A stretch of DNA of 64,000 bases. Source: Ensifer adhaerens (GTDB taxonomy: Bacteria > Pseudomonadota > Alphaproteobacteria > Rhizobiales > Rhizobiaceae). The stretch lies in assembly GCF_002007205.1 (NCBI RefSeq), contig NZ_LAZS01000014.1, forward strand, positions 124,001 through 188,000, given 5' to 3'. Positions 7,733 to 47,978 of this stretch are shown here, one piece after another (positions within the stretch are counted from its first letter, which is position 1; every line of letters starts with the position of its first letter). The notes beneath the pieces are model-generated. The model did not search any database. It had not been told where the DNA came from and was given only the letters and a program-made list of their open reading frames with translations. The position numbers and the translations under genes are program-made.

Positions 7733-7739
7733 TTTGGTC

Positions 7740-30689: not shown

Positions 30690-31529
30690 GTGATTACCCG
30701 ACGCACATTTCTCGAGACTTCGCTTGCGGGGATGTTCTTGCCGATCCCGCTTGCCCAAAGCATGCAAGAAGAGAATCCGATTTCGCTCCTATGTGAGCCC
30801 GAGCCATCTATCTTTCATCAGCACGTAGTCCGCGAATTGAAAGCTTTGAGTGCTCGCCTTGGCGGGTCACTTTCCGTGACTTACATCCCGTCCTCGATTG
30901 AACCTCATGACCTTAAGGAATACATCAAAATCGTAGCTGGACCTAACCGACGGCCAGTGGTTTTGGCAGAGCAAGACCCACCTTGCTTTTGTTCTCTCGA
31001 TCTACCTCGCCTGCGGATCGGCGGTGACATTGACAATATTATTGTCGCTGAGCAATTGGCGCCCGTAATTCGAGAATGGCAGGATTGTTCCTATCCACGT
31101 CATATAATTGCTTTGCATGATCTACACACTGTTTCATATCAGCTTGATGGCAACTACTCTTCAATTCAGCGGATGAGCCTGCCATTTGAGGAAAGTCCTG
31201 TTGGGCAGTTCAATTTTTTGTATTCCGAGCTGGCTCGCTGCAACAATCATTGCATCTCGGTTGTTTCCTTATCAAAGCACTGTAGTCGGATCGCGGCACG
31301 GGTTGCTGTTAGTCTAGATCGGGTCAAGACTATTGAGGTCGCAGGCATCGGATTTGCTCCAGACTTTGCATCCTTTGTCTTCCACGGAAAGTTGCGAAAG
31401 CTGTTCTATTGGGATGCAGAAGGAGTAGCCGGCAGGGCGTTTCGCGCAATTGCGGAGCACGAGCCGTTTGACGGCATCGATTTCTCCAGCGTGCCTTACA
31501 AGGTCTGTGAATTTCATGGACTATCATAG
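30690..31529 (+). CDS. Unrecognised protein with a twin-arginine-like N-terminus
   Basis: 279 residues from GTG 30690 (GGGGGG about 9 nt upstream). The N-terminus, TRRTFLETSLAGMFLPIPLA, has an RR followed by a hydrophobic stretch and could direct Tat or Sec export. The body contains Cys in LLCEPEP, CFCSLDLP, DCSYP, CNNHC and HCSRIA, an unusually high number for a cytoplasmic protein, plus VVLAEQDPPCF and GGDIDNIIVAEQLAPVI. No named family is recognised. It is the first gene of an AT-richer trio with the two following genes, 9 bp before the next. Confidence 0.55.
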   Translation: MITRRTFLETSLAGMFLPIPLAQSMQEENPISLLCEPEPSIFHQHVVRELKALSARLGGSLSVTYIPSSIEPHDLKEYIKIVAGPNRRPVVLAEQDPPCFCSLDLPRLRIGGDIDNIIVAEQLAPVIREWQDCSYPRHIIALHDLHTVSYQLDGNYSSIQRMSLPFEESPVGQFNFLYSELARCNNHCISVVSLSKHCSRIAARVAVSLDRVKTIEVAGIGFAPDFASFVFHGKLRKLFYWDAEGVAGRAFRAIAEHEPFDGIDFSSVPYKVCEFHGLS

Positions 31530-31538
31530 GGGGTCCCA

Positions 31539-32186
31539 TTGCCTTCAGTCGTTCGGTCAGTCACGACACACGACGTCCCTTCTGGACTCAGCCGTCCTGG
31601 CGATAGAACAGGTCGGAATGCCGACATTCCCGGCACTCCGTCGTATTTTTCAGATGTCCTCCAAGGACAGCTAGTGGATGCTATCCACAATCGATTCTAC
31701 ATCGACATGTCGGGAATAGGCTCAACCTCCAGCGCCTTGGACCTCTCTAAAGTCATTCCGGAATTTGTAGTTGGCTTTTCTATGAATGAGAGGGACAGGC
31801 AAGCTGCTCAGGACGCGATGCGAATGGTTGACGCAGTCGCTCTAACAGCCGCTTTCTTCCTAGTGCCTATTGATGCGAAACATGGTCAGGAAATTGCTGC
31901 AAGGCTAGGCGCCTATACGGACGCCCTAAACCAGCTTGTCTTAGCCATATTAGCTAATGACTCTGACATTCCCCTACCCTATGCACGCGATTTCCTTCGA
32001 GACTCGTTCGAGAAAGAACGCAAAACAAGGGAAGAGCTGAGGGACGAAATCGGCCGATCCTATTACGACCGCGGGCTGACTCCACCGGCTATCTTGGACG
32101 GTCCTAGCTTCGAACATGATTATGACACTGAACCGCGAGGCCCGGACGAGCCCCCCGGAGACACGGGTGAGACATACCACGCTTAG
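31539..32186 (+). CDS. Unrecognised protein, second gene of the AT-rich trio
   Basis: 215 residues from a TTG start with AGGGGG 6 nt upstream. The central part is helical and moderately hydrophobic (VDAVALTAAFFLVPIDA, ALNQLVLAILAND). The tail is highly charged (FEKERKTREELRDEIG) and then Pro/Glu/Asp-rich. There is no signal peptide. No family is recognised. It lies 9 bp after the first gene and 12 bp before the third, so the three are probably one transcript. A short alternative frame over the start (from 31516) ends early and is less convincing. Confidence 0.55.
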   Translation: MPSVVRSVTTHDVPSGLSRPGDRTGRNADIPGTPSYFSDVLQGQLVDAIHNRFYIDMSGIGSTSSALDLSKVIPEFVVGFSMNERDRQAAQDAMRMVDAVALTAAFFLVPIDAKHGQEIAARLGAYTDALNQLVLAILANDSDIPLPYARDFLRDSFEKERKTREELRDEIGRSYYDRGLTPPAILDGPSFEHDYDTEPRGPDEPPGDTGETYHA

Positions 32187-32198
32187 AGGATAGCGGCT

Positions 32199-33533
32199 AT
32201 GGCACTTGCAACACTGTTTCTCAAGCCCTCCTTGATGAAGGAATTTCCGAAGACGCTCGAAGAATTCGAGCATACAATTGGATTTCATATATCAAGTAAA
32301 ATTTCCGAGATATCCAATGAAATTCCCCGTCATGATTATGTTCAGGTGGAATTTCTTCTTAGAGATTGCAGCAGAGTTTTGGAAAGATGCTTAGCATATA
32401 GGCGAGAATATTTGGATCTGGATGCGCGAGCGGTCGCCCGCGCGGCGGAGCTTAAATTGTTTCGACTGCAGCGACCTATCTTAGAAGCTATAGAAAGTCA
32501 GGGGGAAACCCAAGGCGTGTTTGAAGCTGAAAACAACGGGTACATTTCCGCCGAAACTGCCTTTCGTTCAGACGTCAGTGCGCTAGGAAAGGGCTTCGCG
32601 GAAGCTTACTCAGGCATGAAGGGAACACTTCAAGCTAGGCGCGGCTTGGAGGAAAGCCGTCTTCAGCTGATCAGTCAGAAGTGGCAAAACCTCGCCGCGC
32701 ACGAGGATTCTATAGAGGCAAAATCCGCAACAACCGGACACTCTCTTAACTATGGAGACCGAGCACGGCGTGTAAGAGAGTTTCTTATTGACGACGTTAC
32801 GGAAGCTTTTCTCAAGTCAAAGGCGGTCAATGCAGGACTCAAGTATCTGTTCGGTACTGAGGATTCGCTTCCGGCGCCTCATAGTCCGGACGGCTCTGTA
32901 AATGAAGACTATTTGGACGAGCTTGTTGACTGGTGCAGGCGATCGGTAAGGAATTTGGAAACGTTTACTGACCGGGATATCGACGTCCGATATATCGTTC
33001 CTGTAATCGGTCGCAGGCTTAGCGAGTCTAATGCCAAGCAGTTTGTAACGACCGTCACCGATGCGGCCTACAAGTCGGCCTTCGCTAGTAATTCAACTAC
33101 AAACCTAGAAATAGATCTTACGAATTTCTTTCCGCCGCAGATAAAGAAGCTACGGCTACGTAGCGTGGGCATCAGTGTAGTGCGGGCAGATGATGATAAG
33201 CCTGCTGGGAGGGCTCTGAGATACAATGCAATTCTCTTTCCTCCTGAAATTCCTGACCCCTTCTCAGTACTGGGAGGGTCCATAGCCCGTGTGCCGGTGC
33301 TGCTTACCAGTATAACCACCGATGAATCGGTTGAGATGGCCGAAGGCACCAATACTAATAACATCAACCCGGCCGGTATCTGGCGTCTGGCGATAGGTAC
33401 AACCGTCCTGACTCGTGGGACGAATTCGCCGTCCAAGAACGCAATGACACCATTAGACCTTCGCCTGCACCTCACGATTAGTTGCCAGCCCAGCGCGAGT
33501 TTGGCGGATTGGAAAGACGTAGCACTCCTCTAA
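32199..33533 (+). CDS. Unrecognised 444-residue protein, third gene of the AT-rich trio
   Basis: No named family is recognised. The N-terminal ~200 residues are helical and coiled-coil-like, with Glu/Arg/Leu (DYVQVEFLLRDCSRVLERCL, ARRGLEESRLQLISQKWQNL). The C-terminal ~150 residues look beta-rich: LEIDLTNFFPPQIKKLRLRS, VGISVVRADDDK, RVPVLLTSI and a final LDLRLHLTIS. This helical-then-beta layout is loosely reminiscent of the C-terminal part of large toxin components, but the likeness is too weak to name. No signal peptide is seen. The sequence is AT-richer than the backbone, consistent with transfer. Confidence 0.55.
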   Translation: MALATLFLKPSLMKEFPKTLEEFEHTIGFHISSKISEISNEIPRHDYVQVEFLLRDCSRVLERCLAYRREYLDLDARAVARAAELKLFRLQRPILEAIESQGETQGVFEAENNGYISAETAFRSDVSALGKGFAEAYSGMKGTLQARRGLEESRLQLISQKWQNLAAHEDSIEAKSATTGHSLNYGDRARRVREFLIDDVTEAFLKSKAVNAGLKYLFGTEDSLPAPHSPDGSVNEDYLDELVDWCRRSVRNLETFTDRDIDVRYIVPVIGRRLSESNAKQFVTTVTDAAYKSAFASNSTTNLEIDLTNFFPPQIKKLRLRSVGISVVRADDDKPAGRALRYNAILFPPEIPDPFSVLGGSIARVPVLLTSITTDESVEMAEGTNTNNINPAGIWRLAIGTTVLTRGTNSPSKNAMTPLDLRLHLTISCQPSASLADWKDVALL

Positions 33534-33742: not shown

Positions 33743-33813
33743 AATCGTAACATCTGGGTTGACGCCGCCTATTTGTGACAATGTAGCCTTTGGCCTAAAC
33801 CTTGAGGTTACAC

Positions 33814-34374
33814 ATGGCCCGCATTGGTTACGCACGTGTTAGTACCACCGACCAGGATTTGCAGGTTCAGCTCGATCGGCTTCGATCGGAGGGCTGCGAA
33901 ATCGTTCGATCGGAGAAGTTGTCTGGGGGAACGCGCGAAGGTCGCACTGAACTTGCGACGGTGATCGAATTCCTTCGGCAAGGCGACGAGCTGGTTGTTA
34001 CGCGGCTGGACCGGCTCGGGCGTGACACCCGCGATGTCCTGAACATCGTTTATGAGTGCCAACAACGAGGCGCGTTCGTGACCGTGCTTGACCCTCACGT
34101 TTCTACCCGCGGAGAAATCGGCCACGTGGTGTTGACTGTGCTAGGGATGGTCGCACAGATGGAGCGGAGGTTCATCAAGGAACGTCAGCGCGAGGGTATT
34201 GCTCGCGCGAAGGCCGCACGTACGTATAAGGGGGGTAGTCCACGTTTGGACCACAATCTCATTCGCAAGCTACATGGAGAGGGCTTGGGGGCATCAGCTA
34301 TCGCAAAACAGGCGGGATGTTCGCGAATGCAGGTGTATCGCGTATTGGCGAAGGCTGTGGCGGTCGCTACCTGA
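33814..34374 (+). CDS. Serine recombinase, resolvase/invertase family
   Basis: 186-residue small serine recombinase. The catalytic Ser lies in IGYARVST (about residue 9), with further active-site Arg residues in VTRLDRLGRDTRD. The E-helix and dimer region is VLTVLGMVAQMERRFIKERQ. The C-terminal helix-turn-helix is GLGASAIAKQAGCSRMQVYRVL. It resolves or inverts DNA between paired sites and is usually from transposons, plasmids or phage. It is too small to be a large serine integrase. ATG at 33814 begins MARIGYARVST; an upstream in-frame codon adds only four residues. Confidence 0.93.
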   Translation: MARIGYARVSTTDQDLQVQLDRLRSEGCEIVRSEKLSGGTREGRTELATVIEFLRQGDELVVTRLDRLGRDTRDVLNIVYECQQRGAFVTVLDPHVSTRGEIGHVVLTVLGMVAQMERRFIKERQREGIARAKAARTYKGGSPRLDHNLIRKLHGEGLGASAIAKQAGCSRMQVYRVLAKAVAVAT

Positions 34375-34622: not shown

Positions 34623-37600
34623 ATGCCTAAACGCTCAAGCCATAAGGTCGGAAGTGAACTCTTTATCGTTGACAATAGTACCGATGATTGGAAGGTGGTT
34701 CGCTACCTGAGAGATTGGTGTGCGCTCTCCAAAAGATTCGATATCGCCACGGGCTACTTTGAAATCGGATCGCTTCTCGCGCTTGAAGGTGAATGGGCCA
34801 AGGTTGAAAAGATACGCGTGCTCATGGGCGACGAGGTGTCTCGCCGGACCAAGAAGGCTTTCGAAAGGGGGCTCGCTGAGATTAGTGCGAGGCTAGACGA
34901 GAGCCTTGACCGAGAAAAGAGCAAGAACCATTTTCTCAAGGGGGTAGATGCCGTTGCAGACGCAATCAGCGCCAAGCAGATTGAGTGTCGCGTCTACCGC
35001 AAGGACAAGTTTCATGCCAAAGCTTACATTACTCACGCCCATCTTGACGTAGTAGGCTCGTCTGCCCTCGTCGGCTCCTCGAATTTCACGCTTCCAGGTT
35101 TAACTCAGAACATTGAGCTCAACGTTCAGGTAACAGGTACTCCGGTAGCCGTGCTCCAGGAATGGTTTGAAGAGCACTGGGATGAAGCTGAAGATGTGAC
35201 GCCCGAACTGCTCAACGTAGTTGAGAAGCATACCCGCGACTATCAGCCCTTCGAAGTCTATGCGCGATCTCTTCAGCAGTATTTCCTGGGCCATGAGGAA
35301 ACGGCCGGTGAGTGGGAGAAGCGGAACTCTCGTATTTTTCCGATCTTGGCCAAGTACCAACGAGATGGATATGGGGGTCTGCTCAAGCGGGCGGAGAAAT
35401 ACGGGGGTGCCTTTCTTTGCGACGGCGTCGGTTTGGGTAAGACGTTCGTGGGCTTGATGCTGATCGAGCGTTTCGTAGTGCACGAGGGCAAAAATGTTGC
35501 CCTCTTCGTTCCGAAAGCAGCCAAAGAGGCGGTTTGGGAGCGCGAACTAAAAAAACGGCTCCCCCATCTTTTCAAAGGTTTCGCCAATCTGCGCATATAC
35601 AGCCACACCGACCTGATGCGTTCCGCGATGCGGGAAGAACTCGACCAGATCGCTAAACAAGCAGACGTCATCATTGTCGACGAGGCGCATCATTTCCGGA
35701 ATACTGGTATCCGTGGTTTGGATGTCGAAGAGCGCAAATCGCGCTATTGGCGCCTTTATGACATCGCTGAAGGAAAGCAGGTTTTTCTGCTAACCGCGAC
35801 ACCGATCAACAACCGTTTGACCGACTTCCAACATATGGTCGAACTCTTCTCTCGACATCGCGCGGATTATTTCGGCGGAGGAACTCTCGGTATCCACTCA
35901 CTGCCTGGCTACATCCGGCAGCTTGAGAAACAGATCGAAGGTGAGATCTACGGCAAGAGCGATGACGAGCGTGTGGAGTTGATCGGGGCCGAAGTTTCTA
36001 CGCGCCTTTATGCGGATCCACTAATTGACGCCTTGGTCGTCCAACGTAGTCGTAGCTACGTAAAGGAGAGCATGAAGCGTGAGGGGGACGGTGATGTCAT
36101 GTTCCCGGAACCGCGCAAGCCCACGGTGGCCGAGTATTCTGTGCGGCAAACCTACGGAAAACTACTGGAGATGGTCGCAAACGCGTTCCACAAACGCGAG
36201 CCATTGTTCGTACTCGGGATTTACAACCCTTATGCTTATTACAAAGGTGATACCGAGGACGTTGCAACGGCCTTGGAGCGCGGACGCCTTAAGCAAGTGG
36301 TTGCTCTGATCAGGACTAGCTTCCTGAAGCGTTTCGAAAGCTCTGCGGAGGCTTTCAAGCAGTCTTGCTGGAGACTCTTGCAAAAGCTTCTTGCCTGGCT
36401 GGAGGTTCATTGCGAAACCGATCACGAAAAAGCGCAACTTGATCGATGGAAACGCAAACACGCGAAGCTGCTCGGTTACAAGCCGGACCGGGACCTCTTC
36501 GATGCTGATGTAGATGAGGACCTGATCCCGGCTGAACTTATCGAGGACATCGAAAAGGACAAGCTGGACCGGCGTGAGTTTAAGGTCGAGGAAATTATCA
36601 CCGACAGCCTCGCCGACCTGGAGCAGCTTGCGGACTTCCTCTACGAGCTTGAAAAATTCAAACCGAGCCAAGATCTGAAACTCAAGAAACTGATCCAGCT
36701 TTTGACTAAGGATCCCGTGCTTTCGAAGCACAAGGTACTCATCTTCAGTGAGTTTGGAGACACGGCGAGATATCTCGCAGCCCACCTCAAGGAAGGCGGG
36801 ATCGATGGTGTTGAACAGATCGACAGCGGCACAAAGGGCGACCGAACGAAGGTCATTCAACGCTTTGCCCCCTACTACAACGACAGCAGCAGCAAGGAAC
36901 AAGGCGACCGGGAGATCAGAGTTCTAATCTCAACTGATGTCTTGTCAGAAGGCCTTAACCTTCAAGACGCGACCCGGCTGATCAATTATGACCTCCACTG
37001 GAATCCCGTCAGGTTGATGCAGCGCATTGGTCGTGTAGATCGTCGAATGAACCCCGAAGTAGAAGCCCGGATACTGAAGGACCATCCGGACCAGCAGGGA
37101 CTGCGCGGAACTGTCGCCTACTGGAACTTCCTGCCTCCCGAAGATCTGGACGAGTTGCTACGCCTTTATGGCAAGGTAGCACACAAGACGCTTCGTATAT
37201 CGAAAACGCTTGGCATCGAGGGCAGAAAGCTACTCCGTGAAGATGACGATTACGAAGATCTTCGGAACTTTAACGAACAGTATGAGGGCCAGCAAAGCCC
37301 AGATGAGCAGCTTCACCTGGAGTGGCAGGACCTGATCAAGGAGCATCCTGCCCTTGAGGAAATGCTAAACAGTTTCCCCAATGCGGTCTTCAGCGGGAAG
37401 CAGAACATCAAGCCCGGCACGCGCGCAGTCTTCTTTTGTTATGCACGTCCGGCACATGACAAGGCGGCGAGTGAGCGGTCGGGCGACGATGTTTGGACAG
37501 CCGAGGCCGGTGACGTGCAGTGGTATCTTTACGATGTCTCCAGCGGCAAGGTCTTCGAGGACGCGCCTCTGATGGCAGAATCGATCCGCTCCGATCCGTC

Positions 37601-37748
37601 GACCCCGCGCCGGGTCGAGATCGAACGCTTGCAGCTCTCCGATATTCGATCAGCAGTAGAGAAGCACATAACCAAGACTTTCTTGCGCAAGGTTCAGGCA
37701 CCTCTCGGCGTCGGGCCTGTTCTGAAGGCGTGGATGGAACTGAACTAA
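34623..37748 (+). CDS. PLD-nuclease/SNF2-type helicase fusion (restriction component)
   Basis: 1041 residues. The N-terminal ~180 residues contain a phospholipase-D-like half-site: His131-x-Lys133 (FHAKAYI) followed by VGSSNFT, as in nuclease-type PLD domains. The superfamily 2/SNF2 helicase follows, with Walker A GVGLGKT (268-274), DEAHH (353-357), TATP (391-394) and motif VI QRIGRVDRR near residue 800. A charged helical insertion lies around 480-640. The organisation suggests a DNA translocase that cuts. It starts at ATG 34623 with GGAATGGGT upstream. The methyltransferase gene follows after 9 bp, so the pair probably form the cutting and modifying halves of one restriction system. The separate helicase distinguishes it from single-chain type ISP enzymes. 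Confidence 0.85.
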   Translation: MPKRSSHKVGSELFIVDNSTDDWKVVRYLRDWCALSKRFDIATGYFEIGSLLALEGEWAKVEKIRVLMGDEVSRRTKKAFERGLAEISARLDESLDREKSKNHFLKGVDAVADAISAKQIECRVYRKDKFHAKAYITHAHLDVVGSSALVGSSNFTLPGLTQNIELNVQVTGTPVAVLQEWFEEHWDEAEDVTPELLNVVEKHTRDYQPFEVYARSLQQYFLGHEETAGEWEKRNSRIFPILAKYQRDGYGGLLKRAEKYGGAFLCDGVGLGKTFVGLMLIERFVVHEGKNVALFVPKAAKEAVWERELKKRLPHLFKGFANLRIYSHTDLMRSAMREELDQIAKQADVIIVDEAHHFRNTGIRGLDVEERKSRYWRLYDIAEGKQVFLLTATPINNRLTDFQHMVELFSRHRADYFGGGTLGIHSLPGYIRQLEKQIEGEIYGKSDDERVELIGAEVSTRLYADPLIDALVVQRSRSYVKESMKREGDGDVMFPEPRKPTVAEYSVRQTYGKLLEMVANAFHKREPLFVLGIYNPYAYYKGDTEDVATALERGRLKQVVALIRTSFLKRFESSAEAFKQSCWRLLQKLLAWLEVHCETDHEKAQLDRWKRKHAKLLGYKPDRDLFDADVDEDLIPAELIEDIEKDKLDRREFKVEEIITDSLADLEQLADFLYELEKFKPSQDLKLKKLIQLLTKDPVLSKHKVLIFSEFGDTARYLAAHLKEGGIDGVEQIDSGTKGDRTKVIQRFAPYYNDSSSKEQGDREIRVLISTDVLSEGLNLQDATRLINYDLHWNPVRLMQRIGRVDRRMNPEVEARILKDHPDQQGLRGTVAYWNFLPPEDLDELLRLYGKVAHKTLRISKTLGIEGRKLLREDDDYEDLRNFNEQYEGQQSPDEQLHLEWQDLIKEHPALEEMLNSFPNAVFSGKQNIKPGTRAVFFCYARPAHDKAASERSGDDVWTAEAGDVQWYLYDVSSGKVFEDAPLMAESIRSDPSTPRRVEIERLQLSDIRSAVEKHITKTFLRKVQAPLGVGPVLKAWMELN

Positions 37749-37757
37749 GGGGCGACA

Positions 37758-40700
37758 ATGGCGGGCATATCAGCGGCTGAACTTTCAAGGATCAACAGCT
37801 TTCCGAAGCTGGTCGATCTGCTTCGGGATCACCTCGAATGGCCTATCGAGGAAGACTATGGCTTTGAGGATGTGGTCTACGAGTATGAGGCCAATGAGCT
37901 TGGCCTTAAGCCTGAGGAGATCGCGAAGATCCGAGAGATTCATCAGTTGCGGCCGCTGGCGACCAGCCAGCCGTGGGGTATCTTCTTCATATCATTCGAG
38001 GACAAAGTTCTTTCCGTTACTGTTCTCCGTCGCATCCTAAAGAATTTGATCGTCAAGAAGCGGGCTGGTGCCCAGGCATCGGATCGGCAGGCCTGGGACA
38101 AAAACGATCTCATTTTTGCCGCCAATTTTGGGAGATCGGGCCACCGTGAGCTCGCCTTTGTGCACTTCTCTGATGGAGCACAGTCACGGGACCTACCTGT
38201 CATGCGGGTGTTGGGGTGGAACGCGAAGGACACCCAGCTTCACAATGACTATGTCGGACGTACCCTTACCGAAAAGCTTCGCTGGCCGGATGACCCTAGG
38301 GACCAAAAGAAATGGCGCGAGGACTGGGCTTCTGCGTTCGAGCTTCGCCTCAACGAGACCATTCGAACATCCAAGGAACTCGCTCTACGGTTGGCCGTAT
38401 TGGCCACGGAGATCAGAGCGCGCGCCAACGAGCTGCTCGCAGCAGAAACAGACCGCGGCCCGATGCGGACCATGCTCGAAGCCTTTCGCAAGAATCTCAT
38501 TCATGACCTGGACGAAGACGGCTTTGCCGACATGTTTGCGCAGACGATCGCCTACGGCATGTTGGCAGCACGCATTTCCCGTCCCACAGGGATCGTCGCT
38601 GACAATCTCGCCGATATGGTGCCTAAGACCAACCCATTCCTAAAGGAACTCTTTGCGAACTTTCTCGCGATCGGTGGTCATGACAAGCGGCAGAGCCTGG
38701 ACTTCGATGAGCTCGGTGTCCGCGATGTCGTTGACATGTTGAACACGGCCAACATGGAAGCAGTTCTTCGCGACTTTGGCGATCGCAATCCAAAAGAAGA
38801 TCCGGTCATTCACTTCTACGAACTATTCCTGAAGGAATACGACCCGGAGAAGCGCATGCAGCGCGGCGTCTTCTACACCCCGCGGCCTGTGGTGAATTTC
38901 ATTGTCCGGGGGGTCGACGAAATCCTGCGGACTGAGTTCGGGCTCCCCCTAGGTCTCGCCGATACCAGTACTTGGGCGGAACTCGCGGCGCGGAACGAAC
39001 GCGTCATAATCCCCGCGCATGTGAAGCCTGAAACTCCCTTCGTCCAGATTCTTGATCCGGCCACCGGCACCGGTACCTTTCTGGTAGAGGTAATCGACCT
39101 GATCCACAAGCGGATGGAAGAGCATTGGAAGGAGCAGCGCAAGTCGGCGGCTGAGATAAAGTCCGCCTGGGACGCTTATGTGCCCAGGCATCTATTGCCG
39201 CGGCTAACGGCCTTCGAGCTGATGATGGCGCCGTATACCATCGCGCATATGAAGATCGGGTTGAAACTGGCGGAGACAGGTTACACCTTCGGATCGGCAG
39301 AGCGCGCCCGTATCTACTTAACCAACGCTCTGGAACCGGCGCGCGATTTGGATATGGAGTTCATCTTCATGTCCGAGGCTCTGGCGCACGAAGCGCAGGC
39401 ATCAAATGAAGCGAAAGCAAAAACGCCCTTCACCGTAGTCCTCGGTAACCCGCCCTACGCAGGGCATTCGAAGAACAACAACATACTTGAGATGGTTAGC
39501 CTTGTGCACGACTACAAGAAGGACTGGCCGGAGCTTCTGAAGCCTGGACAGGGTAAATGGCTGCAGGATGATTACGTTAAGTTCATTCGACTGGCTCAAT
39601 ACAAGCTCGATCGAACCGGATACGGAGTACTCGGCTATATCACAAGCCACTCCTTCTTGGATAACCCGACCTTCAAAGGGATGCGTACGAAACTGAAGGA
39701 GAGTTTTGGGCAAATCCGCGTTTTAGATCTCCACGGGAACGTCAAGAAAAAAGTGAAAGCGCCCGACGGCACGGCCGACGAGGGCGTCTTCGAAGGCGTC
39801 GCTCAGGGGGTCGCGATCACGGAAGCGATCAAGCTTCCAAGTTTCGAATCCTCAAGCCAACTCTGGCGCGACGATTTGTTCGGCTCAGAGACAGAGAAAC
39901 TCGATTTTTTGGTCAACCCTTCCGCGCGGATTTCTGGGCAACAAAAATGCCCTATCGTTCTTCCCGAGTGCTTCTTTGAGACGATCGACTCGGACCTCAA
40001 GCTGGAATGGCAAGAGTTCGAAGGTCTGCCGCGAGTAATGGGTGAGAATGGCGACCCAGCGCCCGGCATCGTCACAACACACGACGAGTACGCCATTTCC
40101 TTTACCGAAAGTGAGCAAATCGAGAAGGTAGAATGGCTGATTGCAACCCCTGACGAAGAAACTGCGAGAGGACGGCTGCGTCTCTGCACGCAGAGCCAAT
40201 GGAACTACAGCGTCGCGAAACGGACTCTTAGTCGTGTGGATTGGAAACGTAGTCTTGTATCGGTGGCATATAGACCCTTCGATCATCGAGTGACGGTATA
40301 CAACAACCAAGTAGCAGTACATCTGCGCGACCGTGTGATGCGACATATGAGTGGCACAAAAAACATTGCTCTGTCGACTGTCAGGCAACTTGCTACTACC
40401 CCTTGGGAGCACGTGCTCGCATGTGACGCGATTCAAGACGACTGTTATGTGTCCAATCGCACAAAGGAGCGCGGCTATCTGTTCCCGCTTTGGCTCAAGC
40501 CCTCGGCGGGAGAGCCACACCGCCGCCCCAACATCGACCGCGCCTGGGCTCAGACTATAGGAAAGGACCTCGGCCTGAGTTACGAAGACGGCATCCCCCG
40601 CGGTGAACAGAAGAGCGTGGGCCAAGACTTGCAATGCACGAAGGATGAACAATGCGGCCTGCTCGACGCCACCTGGGAAGGCCGCGGCGATCTGCAAAAG

Positions 40701-41267
40701 TCCTTCGGCCCCCGCGACCTGTTCGACTACATGTATGCCGTCTTACACAGCCCCGGCTATCGCAGCCGTTATGCCGAATTCCTGAAATCCGACTTCCCAC
40801 GCATCCCTACACCCAGGGCGCGAGCCACCTTTTCGGCCCTAGTGGGCTTCGGTCGCCAGCTCATCAGCCTTCACCTGCTAGGGTCTGATGATGCACCACT
40901 CTTGGATTCGCCCGACATCCGCTTCGCAGGCACTGGTGAGGCGCGGGTGGAAAAGGGCTATCCCGACTATAACAACGGTCGAGTGATGATCAGCGCTACA
41001 CGATGGTTCGAAGACGTGCCGAAGGAAACATGGGAGTTCCGCGTTGGCGGCTATCAAGTCTGCGAAAAGTGGTTGAAGGACCGCGCAGGCAAGGGGGGCA
41101 AGAACCCCAGTCCCGGTCGCGTGTTAACCGGCGAGGACACTCTGCACTATCGCCGTATCGTTGTGGCCCTGACAGAGACCCGCCGTCTGATGGCAAAGAT
41201 CGACACCGAGATTGATAAGCACGGCGGCTGGCCGGGTGCCTTTGTGACGGGACCCGGGAACGCCTGA
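37758..41267 (+). CDS. Type ISP-like N6-adenine DNA methyltransferase with target-recognition region
   Basis: 1169-residue methyltransferase of the type ISP/IIG (Eco57I-like) kind. SAM motif I is DPATGTGTFLVEV near residue 433. Catalytic motif IV is NPPYAGHS near 564, the gamma-type N6-adenine signature. A long helical part (about 150-400) including FYTPRPVVNFIVRGVDEIL precedes the MTase core. The C-terminal ~400 residues look like a target-recognition region and end with RRIVVALTETRRLMAKIDTEI. No helicase motifs are visible; those are in the upstream gene. It should protect host DNA and give the system its specificity. The recognition sequence is unknown. ATG 37758 has AAGGGG upstream. Confidence 0.87.
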   Translation: MAGISAAELSRINSFPKLVDLLRDHLEWPIEEDYGFEDVVYEYEANELGLKPEEIAKIREIHQLRPLATSQPWGIFFISFEDKVLSVTVLRRILKNLIVKKRAGAQASDRQAWDKNDLIFAANFGRSGHRELAFVHFSDGAQSRDLPVMRVLGWNAKDTQLHNDYVGRTLTEKLRWPDDPRDQKKWREDWASAFELRLNETIRTSKELALRLAVLATEIRARANELLAAETDRGPMRTMLEAFRKNLIHDLDEDGFADMFAQTIAYGMLAARISRPTGIVADNLADMVPKTNPFLKELFANFLAIGGHDKRQSLDFDELGVRDVVDMLNTANMEAVLRDFGDRNPKEDPVIHFYELFLKEYDPEKRMQRGVFYTPRPVVNFIVRGVDEILRTEFGLPLGLADTSTWAELAARNERVIIPAHVKPETPFVQILDPATGTGTFLVEVIDLIHKRMEEHWKEQRKSAAEIKSAWDAYVPRHLLPRLTAFELMMAPYTIAHMKIGLKLAETGYTFGSAERARIYLTNALEPARDLDMEFIFMSEALAHEAQASNEAKAKTPFTVVLGNPPYAGHSKNNNILEMVSLVHDYKKDWPELLKPGQGKWLQDDYVKFIRLAQYKLDRTGYGVLGYITSHSFLDNPTFKGMRTKLKESFGQIRVLDLHGNVKKKVKAPDGTADEGVFEGVAQGVAITEAIKLPSFESSSQLWRDDLFGSETEKLDFLVNPSARISGQQKCPIVLPECFFETIDSDLKLEWQEFEGLPRVMGENGDPAPGIVTTHDEYAISFTESEQIEKVEWLIATPDEETARGRLRLCTQSQWNYSVAKRTLSRVDWKRSLVSVAYRPFDHRVTVYNNQVAVHLRDRVMRHMSGTKNIALSTVRQLATTPWEHVLACDAIQDDCYVSNRTKERGYLFPLWLKPSAGEPHRRPNIDRAWAQTIGKDLGLSYEDGIPRGEQKSVGQDLQCTKDEQCGLLDATWEGRGDLQKSFGPRDLFDYMYAVLHSPGYRSRYAEFLKSDFPRIPTPRARATFSALVGFGRQLISLHLLGSDDAPLLDSPDIRFAGTGEARVEKGYPDYNNGRVMISATRWFEDVPKETWEFRVGGYQVCEKWLKDRAGKGGKNPSPGRVLTGEDTLHYRRIVVALTETRRLMAKIDTEIDKHGGWPGAFVTGPGNA

Positions 41268-41269
41268 CC

Positions 41270-42637
41270 ATGGATTCTTTCCAATTCGAGATTGTCAATG
41301 TGATTGCGACGAAGGCTACGCGAAAACAGCGCGTGACCTATCAACAGGTCGGTGAGGCGGTAGGATGGGGACACCCAACCGGACGTGGCTTGGGACCGCA
41401 TCTTGAAGTCGTCCTGCGCTATCTTGCGGACCGGGGCCTCCCCCCACTGACGACGATTGTGGTCAAGAAAGGGCATCGTCATCCGGCAGAAGATGCGATG
41501 GTCTATATTCGGAGCGCACTCGGCGACATTGATATCGAGTCGGCACAGCAGGAAGTCTTCTCCTTTGACTGGAACGCGGTTCCGGAGCTGGCTCCTACAA
41601 AGGATAGGCTGCCAGATGATCGTGCTGTTTGGCTGACGTCGTTCTGGGGTTTCGATCCTGCGGGCTGGGGGTGCATTGGTTTCGCAGACGAGTGGCGGCG
41701 CAATGCATATTTGAGAAACTCCCAGCCTGGCGGACTGGTCGCAATTTACGTGACCAAGAACAAGGGCCCTGAGAACATGCGGGGCAAGGTGGTCGGTGTG
41801 TTGGAGATCTCGCATGAAGCCGGGCATGCGAAGAGTTTCATCTCTGGTGAGCATTGGGCAGCAAAGGAGCTAGATCCGGCGCAGAAGGGTAAATGGCTCT
41901 ATGCGGTAAAGGCCACACGCGCCTGGCGGATTGTGCCTGAAGACTGGAAGCCGGTCGACGAGCTTTTCCCGCAGGCCTATGGAAGTACGAACGCGGAACT
42001 GATCGGCGCGAACGGCGTACCTATCCACGAGGAAGAAGCGGCTGCTCTTTATGAACTCGATGTATACGAAGTACCCGTCTACGGACAATCGGCGCCAGTT
42101 GACCCGACAATACAGACGCTGGAATCAGCACTCGCCCCAAGTCGTGCAGTAAGACCGCCGTCGAGCCCTTACTGGGTCGGCGAAACCGATGGTCCGAAAC
42201 ACCTCTACATCCTCAAACTGATGGGGGATATCGCGGCCTATCTGGGGCGGCCGGCGAAAGAGCTGGAAGAAAAGCACATCATCAAGGTTGGCTTCTCTAA
42301 AAGCCCTTATGCCCGACGGGACCAAATTCAGAGTGCTTATCCGAAGGGCGCATTCAATTGGGAGGTTTTTAAGCCAAATCCTCAGCCAGATGCCGCACCC
42401 TATGCAAACGCCGAAGTGGCGATAGCAGGAGAAGATGCGATGAAGAAAAGGCTTGTTGAAGAAAAGGCTGAAGTGCTTGGAGGCGAGTTTTTCCTCGCTG
42501 ACGATTGGCTGATCTATAGCGCTTGGGCCGCAGGCAAGATGGCCGCGGAAAAAGCTCAAACAGCAGCCGAGGTTTCGGCGGCGGCGACAAGCTTTGACCA
42601 GTTCGGCGACGTGTTTCAGAAGGTCTTCGAGGTTTAA
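41270..42637 (+). CDS. EVE/PUA-like plus GIY-YIG-like protein (candidate modification-sensing nuclease)
   Basis: 455-residue three-part protein. Residues 1-80 carry VTYQQVGEAVGW and LPPLTTIVVKKGHRHP, a layout resembling alkyltransferase-like DNA-binding domains. Residues about 120-225 resemble an EVE/PUA-like domain: WLTSFWGF, FADEWRRNAYLRN, GGLVAIYVTKNKGP and VVGVLEI. Residues about 310-410 resemble a GIY-YIG/T5orf172 domain: LYILKL, then IIKVGFSKSPYARRDQIQ and a later Glu in KRLVEEKAEVLGG. EVE-type domains bind modified cytosines and GIY-YIG domains cut DNA, so a modification-dependent nuclease is a plausible inference. It starts 2 bp after the methyltransferase stop, indicating tight coupling. 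The GIY-YIG catalytic residues are not certain by eye. Confidence 0.65.
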   Translation: MDSFQFEIVNVIATKATRKQRVTYQQVGEAVGWGHPTGRGLGPHLEVVLRYLADRGLPPLTTIVVKKGHRHPAEDAMVYIRSALGDIDIESAQQEVFSFDWNAVPELAPTKDRLPDDRAVWLTSFWGFDPAGWGCIGFADEWRRNAYLRNSQPGGLVAIYVTKNKGPENMRGKVVGVLEISHEAGHAKSFISGEHWAAKELDPAQKGKWLYAVKATRAWRIVPEDWKPVDELFPQAYGSTNAELIGANGVPIHEEEAAALYELDVYEVPVYGQSAPVDPTIQTLESALAPSRAVRPPSSPYWVGETDGPKHLYILKLMGDIAAYLGRPAKELEEKHIIKVGFSKSPYARRDQIQSAYPKGAFNWEVFKPNPQPDAAPYANAEVAIAGEDAMKKRLVEEKAEVLGGEFFLADDWLIYSAWAAGKMAAEKAQTAAEVSAAATSFDQFGDVFQKVFEV

Positions 42638-44200
42638 ATGGCAAAGCGCAGCATAACTGATCGAGAGATAGGCTTGATCAAGGCGATGTTGGCGCGTGAA
42701 ATGAAAAACAAGGACATACAGTTCTACTTCAATCGGCAAGATCGCGCCGTCAACTCGGGCCGTATCACGCAGATCCGGGATAAGAGCTATGGCCCCGAAG
42801 TTCCACAGGCTTCGGAGAATGACCTGAATCTATTTCTGTCGACTTTCAAGCCGGCGGCCATTGGGGCCATGGTCACTCATTCCTTCGTAGCATCTGAGCC
42901 GACCCCGGAGGAACGTGCTAGATCGCTATTCGAGATGCGTGGCCGGTCGGGCTGGTTCTTGAAGACGCATGAATCAGAAACTACCGAATGCAAGGAATCA
43001 TTCTGCCTCAAGCCAGAGCATCGATTTGCAGATCCCCTGCGATCGATAGCAGGGCTCGCCAACAACAATGGCGGCTTTGTTTTCTTCGGTGTCAAGGAGC
43101 TTCCAGACGGCAGCTTGAACGTCGTCGGCCTCAATGACGAAACCTTTGCGCTCACCGACCCAGCCGATTTGAATAGAAGCCTAGCAGGCTCGTTGAACCC
43201 CGTTCCTGTATTCACGATGTTCAGTCTTGAGTTTGACGGGCGACGGGTGGGTGTCGTGCATGTCCAAAAACATGATCTACCACCGGTTATCGCAATCAAG
43301 AACGTCAACAACGAGTTCAGGGAAGGCGCGATCTATTATCGATACGTCGGCGAAACTCGGGCGATCAAACCAGGCGAGTTGCAGCAGATTATTACTTATC
43401 GCGAACAGCGCGCCATCTCCGAATTCTCTAACCGCATCTCGCGGGTAGCTATGGGAGCGGCGGCGACGCTTGATCTGGACACCGGCAAGGTGCAAGGCCG
43501 CGTCGGCAGCTTCATGATCGGCGAGGAACTGTTGCCCAAAATTCAGTTCATACGAGAGGGACAGTTCTCGGAAAGGGATGGTGCACCGGCGCTGAGACTG
43601 ATCGGAGATGTCGAGACGACTTCAGAGCGAGCCCAGGTTGTCAGAGACAACATAACGCCTGACGCGACCATACGAAATTTTCTCACCAGTGTCGTGGTAA
43701 AGGAGCCGCGGCAATACTTGCTTCACTCGGCGCACTCGAATCGGGAATGGCAGCCCATCTGGTACTATGTTCATTTGGCTAGTCTGACTGTTGAAGGCGC
43801 GCTTGAGCTTATGCAGAGAGAGGAGGCGAGCCAGCCCAGCCACCGTGATGGTGTTATTGCACGCCTAACCGGAAAGCGAACAGCCTTTAACGTCAATCAA
43901 GGCAAGCCTAGGCATTTGGTCGCGGCGTTCGCCAAAGGTGAAATCGATGAACCTGCAGACGTCACAGACGCCCACAAATTTGCTCTCGCGGTGCAGGGTC
44001 TTCCTGAGGGTCAGGGGAATCTCGATTTGTTTCGGCAGATTCTATCGAAGTGCTATGGGCTTTCGAACGGTCAGACGACGCAGCAACGCAATCTCCGCAG
44101 TGCGGTGTTCAGGGCAGCTTGCCGGCTTGACGAGCTATTGTATCGATCCAAAGGTGAACAAAACATCTCCGCTACGGAACGGATCCAAGCCCTGAGTTAG
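42638..44200 (+). CDS. Schlafen-type AlbA_2 domain protein with N-terminal helix-turn-helix
   Basis: 520 residues. Residues 1-50 look like a small DNA-binding helix-turn-helix (REIGLIKAMLAREMKNKDIQ, NSGRITQIRDKSYG). Residues about 105-260 form an AlbA_2/Schlafen core: ETTECKESF, then SIAGLANNNGGFVFFGVKE and a later REGAIYYRYVGETR. AlbA_2 proteins bind nucleic acids or act as regulators, and Schlafen relatives include tRNA-cleaving effectors. The C-terminal half is unrecognised. Its ATG directly abuts the upstream TAA, making it the fourth gene of the restriction operon. A defence or regulatory role is inferred from domain and context. Confidence 0.75.
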   Translation: MAKRSITDREIGLIKAMLAREMKNKDIQFYFNRQDRAVNSGRITQIRDKSYGPEVPQASENDLNLFLSTFKPAAIGAMVTHSFVASEPTPEERARSLFEMRGRSGWFLKTHESETTECKESFCLKPEHRFADPLRSIAGLANNNGGFVFFGVKELPDGSLNVVGLNDETFALTDPADLNRSLAGSLNPVPVFTMFSLEFDGRRVGVVHVQKHDLPPVIAIKNVNNEFREGAIYYRYVGETRAIKPGELQQIITYREQRAISEFSNRISRVAMGAAATLDLDTGKVQGRVGSFMIGEELLPKIQFIREGQFSERDGAPALRLIGDVETTSERAQVVRDNITPDATIRNFLTSVVVKEPRQYLLHSAHSNREWQPIWYYVHLASLTVEGALELMQREEASQPSHRDGVIARLTGKRTAFNVNQGKPRHLVAAFAKGEIDEPADVTDAHKFALAVQGLPEGQGNLDLFRQILSKCYGLSNGQTTQQRNLRSAVFRAACRLDELLYRSKGEQNISATERIQALS

Positions 44201-44240: not shown

Positions 44241-45887
44241 TCACGAACCCTCCCATGCAGCAAGCGACCAGATCCGCTGAGCGCGTTCAAGCAGCTCGTT
44301 CTGCCGGGACGAAAGAATGTCCTTCGTCCAATGCTCGGCATCCAGGATCGGTTTAGTCGTGTCGAATGAAACCCGGTTGTTCCTTTCGGCGTAAACTTTC
44401 TTCTTGCGGTCAAAGGGGAAGTACTGCGCCTTGTAGTTCTTGATTCCGGCGAGCAGCGCGAGATTGCCTAGGCGGTGCAGCCAAAGGCGGTGTTCGTCGT
44501 CGCTGAAGCGCTCACGCCAGTACGCGTCCTTGAGCGCCTGGGGCAGAACATGCTCAATGGTGATCTGGCCGCTGAAATCCTTGGTGACGGACTCGTCTTG
44601 GTCGGCTTCTTCTAGGCGAAGCAAAACGGCATGTGCGAAGGGCTTGCCGTAAACTTCACCATTGAGCAACACCTTGAACTCTTCGTCATTGGCTTTCGCA
44701 CGGAAAATGGCGCGGATATCATCGGCGCCTTTTCCGGCACGAACCGCAGTGATCAGCTGAAAATATGCAGTAAGGCGCGCGGTGAAAGCCAGGCGACGGA
44801 TCCAGTTCTGATATGTGATGCGTTCTAGCAGGTCGACGAATTCGCTTTCCTTCATGCCTTCGACCGGCGCATTCAAGAACGCAAGGAGCGGTGGGATCCA
44901 CTCCTCGAAGGCGGCGCGACGCAGCGAACGCACTGCTCTTCGAGCCGCAGTTGTCTCGAAATCATTGCGTAGAATGCGCAGGTAGTTACTGGCGGACGTG
45001 TTCAGCTGTTCAAGGAAGGAAAACGGCGTTGCCGCGGTCTCGATGAGCGGCTCGAACTCCTCATGAAGCGCCTTCCGAGCCTTGATTGCAACGATGGAGC
45101 TGCGATGGTGAGCAAGGAACTGATCGAGACGCTCGATCCCGATCTGCTCCTCGAGCTCAAGCCAGGCTTCGTCCAGCTCACTGCTCCGCGCGGCGTCCCC
45201 TCCCAGCCGGGCGAACAACATATTTTTGATTAGGTCGGCATTTGAAAGAGCCATCCCGCGTGCATTCAGTACGTTGAACAGCCGGTAGGCCGACTGCCAG
45301 GACGCCGTTGTCACGAAGACGACGTAAACGCGACTGAGAAGGAAGTTGGCGAATAATTTCAGCGTTTTCTGGTCGTGCCGAGCAATGAAGGCGTCGATTG
45401 ATTCGAGGTTCTCGGTTATCCGTTGCTTAGGCGCGTCCTGCTCCTTGACTATTTCCTTACGAACGGCGTCAGGCACCGGCTGACCGGCAAGGACATACTT
45501 TCGGAAAAAACTCTGATCACGCTGCCGAAGCGTCAAACGAGGTGTCTCCTCCTCTCCCGTCAAAGCGTTTCGCGGCAGAACGCGCCTTCCGAGCTCCGAC
45601 TTCGCCGGTTCGTCCACTGCATCACGTAACCGCGAGAAAATCAGATTCAGGGTTGTGAGGCGCTGCTGACCATCAACAACGTCGTACAGCTGCCCCTTAA
45701 CGCGCTCTATGGTGATCAGCGAGCCGATAAAATACTCCTCATCTTTGGCCTCGTATGCTTCCCATACGTCGTCAAGGAGTTGCTCAACGTTTCCCTTCTC
45801 CCAGGAATAGGGCCGCTGATAGGCGGGAATCTCGTAGCAAATTTGCTCAGTCAAAATCTGGCTAATCGTGCGTTCCGCTGCTTCCAT
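44241..45887 (-). CDS. DUF262/DUF1524 (GmrSD-like) modification-dependent restriction protein
   Basis: 548 residues. The N-terminal DUF262 domain has IPAYQRPYSW (about 20-29) and the ParB-like nucleotide motif VVDGQQRLTTL (about 70-80). The C-terminal DUF1524/HNH nuclease has ITIEHVLPQAL (about 442-452) and LHRLGNLAL (about 470-478). This is the one-chain form of GmrSD, the type IV system that cleaves glucosylated hydroxymethylcytosine DNA of T-even phages; relatives use other modified bases. It converges with the AlbA_2 gene with a 40-bp gap and is transcribed separately. The exact modification recognised is unknown. Confidence 0.88.
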   Translation of the reverse strand: MEAAERTISQILTEQICYEIPAYQRPYSWEKGNVEQLLDDVWEAYEAKDEEYFIGSLITIERVKGQLYDVVDGQQRLTTLNLIFSRLRDAVDEPAKSELGRRVLPRNALTGEEETPRLTLRQRDQSFFRKYVLAGQPVPDAVRKEIVKEQDAPKQRITENLESIDAFIARHDQKTLKLFANFLLSRVYVVFVTTASWQSAYRLFNVLNARGMALSNADLIKNMLFARLGGDAARSSELDEAWLELEEQIGIERLDQFLAHHRSSIVAIKARKALHEEFEPLIETAATPFSFLEQLNTSASNYLRILRNDFETTAARRAVRSLRRAAFEEWIPPLLAFLNAPVEGMKESEFVDLLERITYQNWIRRLAFTARLTAYFQLITAVRAGKGADDIRAIFRAKANDEEFKVLLNGEVYGKPFAHAVLLRLEEADQDESVTKDFSGQITIEHVLPQALKDAYWRERFSDDEHRLWLHRLGNLALLAGIKNYKAQYFPFDRKKKVYAERNNRVSFDTTKPILDAEHWTKDILSSRQNELLERAQRIWSLAAWEGS

Positions 45888-46113
45888 AATGACTCTCTAT
45901 AATCGGGTGCGCCTGACGATGCAGACCCCTTATTCACAGCCTAAAAAACTGATGGTTGTAGCCCTAAAAAAGAACTAGCAGACATCGGGCCGTACGCAAG
46001 CCTCTGAGCACCGTCAAACGACTTTAAACGGAACATCTTCGCCGGCAGTCCGGTACGCATTTGTCTGCCGAAAAGTGTATTGGACCCTGATTGCCAGTCT
46101 TGACGAGGTGACA

Positions 46114-46563
46114 ATGCCGCTGTTTACGAAACTTGAACACGAGTTGCTGCAGGCGCTGCTGGTTGCCGACGTTGATTTTGTTGTTGTAGGTGGCGGTGCC
46201 GTTGTCGCTCACGGACATCAGCGTGAGCGCGGAGATATCGACATCCTTGTGCGCCAAACTGATGAAAACCTCCGTCGACTCCGAGAGGTACAGCTCGATT
46301 GGATCGGCTTCAAGGACCACCAGATTGCCGAACTCAAGCAGCTGGGCGCCAAGATCCAGGACAAGCGTCGCGGCTTCGACCTTCTGACTGACTTTCACGG
46401 AATGGACTTGGAGGAGATTTTTGCAACAAAAGTCACTGTTGAGGTAGACGGGAGGCCTCTGCCATTCATGTCGAGGGGGCTGGTCATTGCGTCCAAGAAG
46501 GCAGCCGTGGAAAGCGGAAAACACGAACAGAAAGACTTAGACGATATCAAAGCGCTTTCTTGA
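46114..46563 (+). CDS. Nucleotidyltransferase-fold protein, no partner seen
   Basis: 149 residues with a minimal nucleotidyltransferase core: VVVGGGAVVAHGHQR then GDIDILV, the GG...DxD motif. It resembles AbiEii/MNT-type antitoxin or toxin nucleotidyltransferases. A HEPN or AbiEi partner would be expected beside it but none is seen. The start ATG 46114 has GAGGTGA upstream. It is the last gene of the island before the tRNA. The activity is inferred from the motif only. Confidence 0.72.
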   Translation: MPLFTKLEHELLQALLVADVDFVVVGGGAVVAHGHQRERGDIDILVRQTDENLRRLREVQLDWIGFKDHQIAELKQLGAKIQDKRRGFDLLTDFHGMDLEEIFATKVTVEVDGRPLPFMSRGLVIASKKAAVESGKHEQKDLDDIKALS

Positions 46564-46915: not shown

Positions 46916-47005
<90 letters not shown>

Positions 47006-47300: not shown

Positions 47301-47675
47301 ATGTTCGCAGTCATCAAGACCGGCGGTAAGCAGTACCGCGTGGCCGCCAACGACGTCCTCACCATCGAAAAGCTGGAAGGCGTTGCAGGCGACAAGATCG
47401 AATTCACCGAGATCCTGATGGTCGGCGTCGGCGCCGATGCAACCATCGGTGCTCCGTTTGTCGAAGGCGCCGTTGTCAGCGCTGAAGTTGTGGACCAGGG
47501 TCGCGCCAAGAAGGTCATCGCCTTCAAGAAGCGTCGCCGCCAGAACTCCAAGCGCTCGCGCGGTCACCGCCAGCACCAGACGACTGTCCGTATTCTGGAC
47601 ATCGCTGCTGCCGGTGGCAAGGCAAAGAAGGCTTCGAAGAAGTCTGAAGCTGCCGCTGAAGCCGCTGCAAACTGA
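47301..47675 (+). CDS. rplU: 50S ribosomal protein L21
   Basis: 124 residues. L21 binds 23S rRNA in the large subunit. [34 protein letters not shown] and HQTTVRI are family hallmarks. A Lys/Ala-rich tail ([18 protein letters not shown]) extends beyond the usual ~103 residues, as is common in Rhizobiales. It is followed by rpmA. Confidence 0.98.
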
Positions 47676-47708
47676 GTTCAGGGATCTAAGGTTTAAAGGA
47701 GAACACCA

Positions 47709-47978
47709 ATGGCACACAAAAAAGCTGGCGGTTCGTCGCGTAACGGTCGCGATTCTCAGTCCAAGCGCCTTGGCGTGAAGAAGTTCGGCGGCGAAAACGT
47801 CGTTGCGGGCAACATCATCGTGCGCCAGCGCGGCACGAAGTGGCATCCGGGCGCCAATGTCGGCCTCGGCAAGGACCACACGATTTTTGCGCTTACGGCT
47901 GGCAACGTTGACTACCGTACGAAGGCCAATGGCCGCGTGTACGTGTCTGTAATGCCGAAAGCCGAAGCAGCGGAATAA
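47709..47978 (+). CDS. rpmA: 50S ribosomal protein L27
   Basis: 89 residues of L27, whose N-terminus reaches toward the peptidyl-transferase centre. [30 protein letters not shown] and [11 protein letters not shown] are intact. AAAGGAG precedes the ATG. It is cotranscribed with rplU and then meets a strong terminator. Confidence 0.98.

Follow-up and report, generated by a model that had tools for sequence, protein, structure and literature searches.

A three-part protein with winged-helix-like, EVE-like, and GIY-YIG parts in a restriction-modification-like operon of Ensifer adhaerens: a candidate modification-dependent nuclease

How can a nuclease that reads modified bases spare a host whose DNA is marked by the methyltransferase (MTase) encoded beside it? 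A small operon of Ensifer adhaerens offers a direct test case for this question. We analyzed a stretch of 64,000 nt (GCF_002007205.1, NZ_LAZS01000014.1, positions 124,001-188,000, forward strand), hereafter the window, in which a single protein, P0001, unites three reader or cutter parts of separate modification-dependent enzymes and is encoded beside an adenine MTase.

The operon and its surroundings

P0001 is encoded by the third gene of a co-directional four-gene operon (PLD-SNF2 helicase, MTase, P0001, and AlbA_2 protein), with gaps of 9, 2, and 0 nt between the genes:

34623..37748, + strand: PLD-like domain and SNF2-type helicase, 1041 aa (Pfam PLDc_2 8.7e-10, Helicase_C 5.5e-19)
37758..41267, + strand: type ISP/IIG-like N6-adenine MTase with NPPY and an ISP C-terminal specificity domain (Pfam Type_ISP_C 6.9e-68, Eco57I 1.3e-8)
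41270..42637, + strand: P0001, winged-helix(ATL-like)-EVE-GIY-YIG, 455 aa, ATG start (open reading frame and translation)
42638..44200, + strand: Schlafen AlbA_2 protein, 520 aa (Pfam SLFN_AlbA_2 2.2e-13), conserved in L005 and L006

The pairing of P0001 with an MTase, proposed in an earlier note on this DNA, is borne out by this arrangement: both genes lie in the same tight operon, and P0001 starts 2 nt past the MTase stop. The first gene matched HKD+Snf2 in PADLOC (1.2e-58), and HAK, GSSN, GLGKT, and DEAH were seen in its product; the HxK...GSxN spacing pattern, as tried, gave no match. At E 1e-100, this gene was found in 1 of the 385 genomes of the class, namely the window's own. The NPPY motif and the N6/Eco57I-type domains of the second gene product suggest that its mark is N6-methyladenine. 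No match to a DUF499 ATPase was obtained with Pfam or PADLOC among the six proteins scanned, from the helicase to the AbiEii-like gene described below.

All four genes were also present in L005 (Neorhizobium) and L006 (a Rhizobiales isolate). The L006 locus starts partway through the helicase gene, and an IS66-type element, recognized by eye, interrupts the MTase gene there. The P0001 counterparts in these two operons are 449 aa long and 80-81% identical to P0001. The comparison with L005 gave dN 0.130 and dS 3.35 (ratio 0.039, with dS saturated), and the ratio between the L005 and L006 counterparts was 0.14. Read in the same register, the opposite strand of the P0001 frame contains two stops; reverse-strand open reading frames of 235 and 204 aa overlap the gene. 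P0001 is a real gene under purifying selection.

Several further features surround the operon. Directly downstream, in convergent orientation, lies a second type IV-like restriction enzyme, a GmrSD-like protein (44241-45887, - strand; Pfam N- and C-terminal domains 2e-36 and 8e-25). It is followed by a weak AbiEii/nucleotidyltransferase-like protein without an obvious partner (46075-46563, + strand; all Pfam matches below cut-offs). The defence island is bordered by tRNA-Ser (46916-47005, - strand) and by rplU and rpmA (47301-47978, by eye). The L005 and L006 operons are followed by a probable integrase (by eye; in L005 Pfam gave only a weak DUF6538 match) and, further on, by obg (Pfam, L005). 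Considering these borders together with the integrase and obg beyond the sister operons, the operon site could be a hot spot for integration. Immediately upstream lie a serine-recombinase-like gene (33802-34374, + strand, by eye) and several genes without assignment (29034-33533). An ordinary EVE-domain protein is encoded elsewhere in the window (7301-7837, - strand; Pfam EVE 4.5e-44).

The three parts of P0001

Searches with the single P0001 sequence matched no family in Pfam, PADLOC, or NCBIfam and no PDB sequence; against Pfam, including T5orf172 and MUG113, there was no match at E<=1. Therefore, the domain assignments below draw on relatives, profiles, and fold. A profile of 11 aligned proteins (A4) had no match among PDB sequences. 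The profile of the N-terminal part (A5) gave two chance-looking matches there, a cytochrome trimer (E 0.0021) and SdeA (E 1), which were rejected. The full-length AlphaFold2 model had a mean pLDDT of 70.4 with 10 sequences in the input. The parts are as follows:

41270..41584, + strand: winged-helix-like domain, residues 1-105, with a helix-turn-helix (HTH) core nearest AGT/ATL (PF01035) and without the PCHR/PWHR motif
41603..42076, + strand: EVE/ASCH/YTH (PUA-like) reader domain, residues 112-269 (Y160, W209, R217, E267)
42197..42502, + strand: GIY-YIG nuclease domain of T5orf172 type, residues 310-411 (Y313, K339, G341, R349, E388, K392, E406)

The C-terminal profile was compared by hhalign with 10 T5orf172 proteins of related genomes (18 stretches listed, 13 tried, 10 usable), giving a probability of 94.8, an E value of 5.5e-8, and a score of 46.4; 100 column shuffles reached at most 17.1. 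Fold matches of this part in BFVD were headed by a T5orf172 protein. Tyr313, Lys339, Gly341, Arg349, Glu388, Lys392, and Glu406 were identical in 11 of 11 proteins in A4 and in 10 of 10 in the alignment with viral relatives, and Y313, K339, R349, E388, and E406 are in register with the T5orf172 proteins, so that the Tyr of GIY, the Lys/Tyr of YIG, and the Arg and Glu positions are all accounted for. A Pfam T5orf172 match at E<=1 was obtained for three of the 11 aligned proteins (best 0.0036), P0001 itself giving none. These results indicate that the C-terminal part is, as predicted from sequence, a T5orf172-type GIY-YIG nuclease domain with a conserved active site; the Tyr/Arg/Glu site expected of such a domain aligns.

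For the middle part, the best Foldseek matches of the full-length model were EVE structures (2p5d, E 8.7e-4; 1wmm, 2.0e-3; 1zce, 0.021; 2ar1, 0.057), followed by YTH domains. In VIA-align, the part around residues 112-269 superposed on 1wmm with a Z of 10.5 and an rmsd of 2.9 over 129 aligned residues. The other Z values were 10.4 for ZmASCH, 9.4 for McrB-N, 8.9 for YTHDC1 with 6mA, 8.4 for both THYN1 and DrmAB (DrmA), and 8.2 for VcaM4I (6yex); the values near 8 are little above background, since best values of 7 to 8 often arise where no clear match exists. Y160, W209, R217, and E267 were identical in all 11 proteins of A4, and E267 was kept in nine of the 10 proteins of the alignment with viral relatives (A7). 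The sequence link is weak: Pfam EVE matched four of the 11 aligned proteins at E<=1 (best 0.0092), and a profile comparison with eight EVE proteins scored 18.2, below the shuffle maximum of 25.2. By fold, the middle part is thus a PUA-like domain of the EVE/ASCH/YTH kind, and the fold search, the check proposed for it in advance, agreed.

The N-terminal part is the least distinct. Compared by hhalign with 23 PF01035 (AGT/ATL) proteins, its profile scored 34.9 (E 7.2e-6) over only 24 columns, which correspond to an HTH core with T-Y and R (T/S-Y-x-x-(I/V)-A...R). MarR and HTH_24 decoys, which were shorter profiles, scored 22.7 and 23.6, and 100 column shuffles at most 16.9. Because both decoys also exceeded the shuffles, the AGT/ATL signal is partly a general HTH signal. 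At E<=1, Pfam gave PF01035 in one of nine members (E 0.011) and Xre-like-HTH in one of nine (E 0.0066). The pocket motif of AGT/ATL proteins is P-[CWA]-H-R-V. PCHR is present in the PF01035 proteins used for comparison; the P-C/W-H-R motif was not found in P0001, where PPLTTIVV stands in its place, and by this feature P0001 is no ATL. A separate model of this part (pLDDT 58.6) matched general winged helices with a Z of at most 5.8, and a fold search with this low-confidence model returned no AGT among the best 50 matches of each list; with the full P0001 model, Foldseek placed human AGT (1eh7) at rank 19 (E 1.3). Taken together, this part is probably winged-helix-like and closest to the AGT/ATL domain, by a match that is weak and short.

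The same domain was fused to a PD-(D/E)XK-like domain with a conserved E-V-K in three distant sources (L039 6232-7221, L102 3953-4804, and L104 2911-3783), for which Pfam gave, in L039, only sub-threshold nuclease-fold matches (Tox-REase-9 0.0028, MmcB-like 0.016). This arrangement supports a DNA-directing role of the domain ahead of nucleases. The N-terminal domain also stands alone (L011 1-393) on a 4.8-kb Klebsiella plasmid that bears a radical SAM gene.

The three-part layout of P0001 is confirmed. In the description given by the earlier note, the EVE/PUA-like part is upheld by fold, and the GIY-YIG-like part by profile, fold, and residues in register. The term ATL-like holds only in part: the HTH core scores higher against AGT/ATL than against MarR and HTH_24, but over 24 columns only, the P-C/W-H-R motif is absent, and a low-confidence model resembles general winged helices.

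Relatives, their settings, and the exchange of MTase specificity

The EVE+GIY module is rare. Matches were found in 4 of 101 relatives' genomes, 8 of 385 class genomes (own genome counted, two of the eight by the EVE part only), 7 of 398 phylum genomes (three full-length and the others partial, some genomes being shared with the class set), and 10 of 72,556 plasmid records, six of which held the N-terminal domain only. In a phage collection, P0001 had no match at E 0.1; its N-terminal part matched five records at E 4, two of them of Salmonella, one lying inside a gene annotated as a restriction endonuclease that adjoins a Lon-protease-like gene. Among viral contigs, single-protein queries with P0001 and its N-terminal part matched only L102, a relative combining the winged helix with the restriction-endonuclease-like domain.

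Full-length relatives were found in L005, L006, L007, and L029, the last two being outside the four-gene operon (a Limimaricola plasmid and genome G163). Beside the L007 protein, P0002, lie an ATPase and a protein that matches HEPN weakly (E 0.0012, under the cut-off). Proteins with the EVE and GIY parts but no N-terminal part were encoded in L002/L040, L004/L041, L008, L030-L033, and the viral contigs L044-L053; within A4, seven of the 11 proteins are of this kind (L030-L033, L002, L004, and L008). N-terminal domains were found elsewhere in P0005 of a Klebsiella plasmid, L036, L038, L039, and L043; alignment A5 leaves out L037 (no open reading frame at the filter used) and L027.

In L034 (6242-7273) and L035 (7627-8565), an HNH-like part, recognized by eye and not called by Pfam, replaces GIY-YIG after the EVE-like domain, and the L034 gene lies near HsdM and HsdS. 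In L057 (163-3131), a GIY-YIG part of the P0001 family ends a DUF3427 protein, which is neighboured by a Vsr gene and, judged by eye, a recombinase-like one. An Aminobacter plasmid (L009 10001-10268) carries short unannotated pieces 66% identical to P0001 residues 277-366, probably a gene remnant.

We counted MTases in the examined flanks of 20 EVE+GIY loci, using a motif scan (open reading frames of at least 150 aa, two motifs) and phmmer; some flanks were short (1.3 kb on the 3' side of L033, 0.3 kb on the 5' side of L041, and several viral contigs). The count excludes the viral L045 (a near-duplicate of L046) and L053 (cut short), as well as the EVE-only, GIY-only, or divergent L003/L042, L010, L034, L035, L057, L058, L059, and L060; L009 consists of fragments only. 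Six loci had an MTase, which was ISP-like in the window, L005, and L006 (one system), MmeI-like in L030 and L040, and an HsdM with HsdS in L008. The remaining 14, eight of them viral contigs that are not independent of one another, had none. In the viral contigs L044-L053, the EVE+GIY genes, mutually about 65-70% identical, lie as cargo among head-tail genes; the neighbours in L044, L046, and L049 included portal, head protease, major head, minor tail, and tape-measure proteins, according to PHROGs, which named a function for all but one of the nine proteins scanned.

The gene order in L030 and L040 is MmeI-like MTase, EVE-GIY, DEAD helicase, and T5orf172 GIY-YIG protein. Three plasmid operons (L185-L187), opened from 235 plasmid records matching the MmeI-like MTase, encode an MTase, a helicase, and a T5orf172 protein that are 56-67% identical to those of L030. 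Nothing occupies the EVE-GIY slot in L186 and L187, and in L185 it is taken by an unrelated protein of 260 aa, so EVE-GIY as a fixed part of these operons was rejected: the module is optional and fills the slot in two of five. The D-x-ExK nuclease motif was absent from the MmeI-like MTases of L030, L040, L185, and L187, with a doubtful match in L186, in a scan without a positive control. As L185 and L187 lack both the motif and EVE-GIY, a link between nuclease loss in these MTases and the presence of EVE-GIY was likewise rejected.

The operon MTase differs sharply between sister operons in one region. Identity between the window and L005 was 83-98% over residues 1-540, 17-49% over residues 541-952, 58-62% over residues 953-1072, and 84-87% thereafter; L005 and L006, comparable only up to residue 715 before the insertion, shared 87-100% over residues 1-540 and 27-52% over residues 541-715. 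For the same two pairs, the helicase was 92% and 99% identical, P0001 80% and 95%, and the AlbA_2 protein 76% and 98%. The MTase recognition region thus appears to have been exchanged while P0001 stayed 80-95% identical. As P0001 hardly changed alongside the swapped region, it is not matched to the MTase site, and the L005/L006 pair in particular shows that its sequence is independent of MTase specificity.

Furthermore, an N-terminal PD-x-ExK (PD-(D/E)XK) nuclease motif was absent from the MTases of the window and L005, which sets the operon MTase apart from a complete single-chain type ISP/IIG enzyme. Seven MTase relatives were opened (four of 40 plasmid records and three of three other family genomes), and six had the motif; the exception, Nostoc L178, adjoins a separate SNF2-like helicase open reading frame. 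The first 180 residues or more of the operon MTase align to none of the seven.

Proposed function and comparison with known systems

We propose, with a probability of about 0.58, that P0001 is a modification-dependent (type IV-like) DNA-reading endonuclease carried as accessory cargo in a split type ISP-like restriction-modification operon. Reader and nuclease domains stand in one chain, as in type IV modification-dependent enzymes. The EVE-like domain would flip and bind a modified base; the likeliest targets are modified cytosines and bulkier phage bases. Further contact with DNA or a sequence may come from the winged-helix part, and cutting nearby would fall to the GIY-YIG domain. The MTase and the helicase-PLD protein would handle unmodified foreign DNA, and P0001 those phages whose base modifications would hide them from this pair. 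The host would be spared because the trigger differs from the presumed N6-methyl mark of the operon MTase; it is plausible that P0001 tolerates this mark and reads a different one. With no MTase to protect the host, a nuclease that cuts at a specific sequence should kill its own cell, which does not hold for a modification-dependent nuclease. The 14 of 20 loci without an MTase in the examined flanks favour modification dependence, even though the window gene adjoins an MTase. The pairing of the module with three kinds of MTase (ISP-like, MmeI-like, and HsdM with HsdS), its optional slot in the MmeI-like operons, and its independence from MTase specificity likewise speak for the proposal. Against this proposal, all three known window-type operons keep the P0001 gene, the EVE match is by fold and by profile not above shuffles, and the MTase is without the nuclease that its relatives have built in, which one would expect if restriction were encoded by separate genes.

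This last point is why a doubtful reading, P0001 as the restriction subunit of a split restriction-modification system, keeps about a quarter of our confidence. The MTase region would find an unmethylated site, the SNF2 helicase would translocate, and P0001, with or without the PLD domain, would cut, its EVE and winged-helix parts contacting DNA or sensing methylation state rather than phage modification. The PD-ExK motif present in six of seven relatives but absent here, the tightness of the operon, and the L030/L040 MmeI-like MTases, which lack D-x-ExK (no positive control) and adjoin EVE-GIY and a helicase, are in line with such a role. The many MTase-free loci, the otherwise similar MmeI-like operons from which EVE-GIY is missing, and the further nuclease-type domain that each kind of operon has (PLD-like for the window, T5orf172 for L030/L040) speak against it. 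Rather unlikely, in our judgement, is that P0001 serves a split restriction system as its self/non-self checking nuclease, using its EVE and ATL-like domains to read how the DNA delivered by the MTase and helicase is methylated. This would account for the free exchange of recognition regions beside a constant nuclease and for an MTase that has lost its own nuclease, and one interchangeable nuclease would then serve MTases of any specificity.

Two other roles fit the genomic settings less well. The AlbA_2 partner, together with the ATPase and weak HEPN match beside P0002, might point to a regulatory or self-poisoning effector that, on binding modified DNA or on loss of host methylation, would cut DNA generally and cause abortive infection with the Schlafen AlbA_2 protein; Schlafen RNases are named among the backup effectors of BREX and related systems (PMC12839542). 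We regard this as improbable, because the module occurs in viral contigs without ATPase, HEPN, or AlbA_2 partners. The AGT/ATL-nearest HTH core and the rank of human AGT in the fold search would suit a repair or damage-response nuclease, in which the ATL-like domain reads O6-alkylguanine-like lesions and GIY-YIG makes the incision, an abridged form of the ATL-UvrC route; UvrC likewise has a GIY-YIG domain (PMC12923530). Such a role is very improbable given the missing PCHR/PWHR motif, the seven A4 proteins without the N-terminal domain, the fusions of that domain to a PD-(D/E)XK-like domain, and the occurrence in restriction operons and viral contigs.

The modification-dependent, type IV-like reading is in line with several described enzymes. 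EVE-GIY-YIG fusions were reported in 2020 and proposed to be modification-dependent restriction enzymes (Bell, Wolf, Koonin; PMC7641849); they share the EVE and GIY-YIG domains with P0001, and the accessible text describes neither an ATL-like/winged-helix N-terminal domain nor a location in an operon of ISP- or MmeI-like type; the terms 'alkyltransferase' and 'type ISP' are absent from it. The wH-GIY-YIG (Ahi29725I, Apa233I) and PUA-wH-HNH (HtuIII, HHPV4I) enzymes are modification-dependent and built from the same kit of parts, and the wH-EVE-GIY order of P0001 was not met in the accessible text of PMC11037411. These enzymes read 6mA in the Dam context (PMC11037411), whereas a general 6mA reader would be self-toxic here, since the operon MTase is of the N6-adenine type. 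VcaM4I also joins an EVE-like reader to a nuclease (PMC7897488), but it has HNH instead of GIY-YIG and only two domains, without the N-terminal winged helix of P0001. Its base pocket consists of W82, Y130, Q128, T11, and E15 (PMC7897488); W209 and E267 of P0001 are conserved, and the profile alignment is too weak for placing them in that pocket. Removal of the EVE domain and linker turned VcaM4I into a toxic non-specific nuclease (PMC7897488), and the P0001 nuclease may be gated in the same way. CMoRE (PD-T4-3; PMC12923530) is likewise a GIY-YIG type IV enzyme against modified phage DNA, but unlike P0001 it has an N-terminal nuclease, a sensing domain reported to be without known homologues, and a GIYxY-YIG motif.

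At the operon level, DUF499-centred BREX-related (Hma) systems combine a helicase-nuclease, an N6 MTase, and sometimes a nearby EVE protein (PMC12839542), and an archaeal SNF2-nuclease/COG1743/DUF499/EVE operon shares the helicase-nuclease, N6 MTase, and EVE protein (PMC7641849). For this related operon, the MTase mark was suggested to be one that the EVE domain does not recognize (PMC7641849). Unlike both, the window has no DUF499 match in the six proteins scanned, an EVE domain fused to its own nuclease, and AlbA_2 as the fourth gene. BrxU, which acts independently of its BREX host system, is a further precedent for the proposed reading. If P0001 reads a phage base, it could be a reagent for mapping that base. 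The exchange of recognition regions beside a constant nuclease, together with the cargo slot of the MmeI-like operons, suggests that restriction operons carry interchangeable anti-counter-defence modules. In the accessible parts of the open-licence literature, we found no winged-helix/ATL-EVE-GIY protein and no description of a helicase/MTase/P0001/AlbA_2 operon; the parts are known separately, and their three-part combination and its placement in a restriction operon look new.
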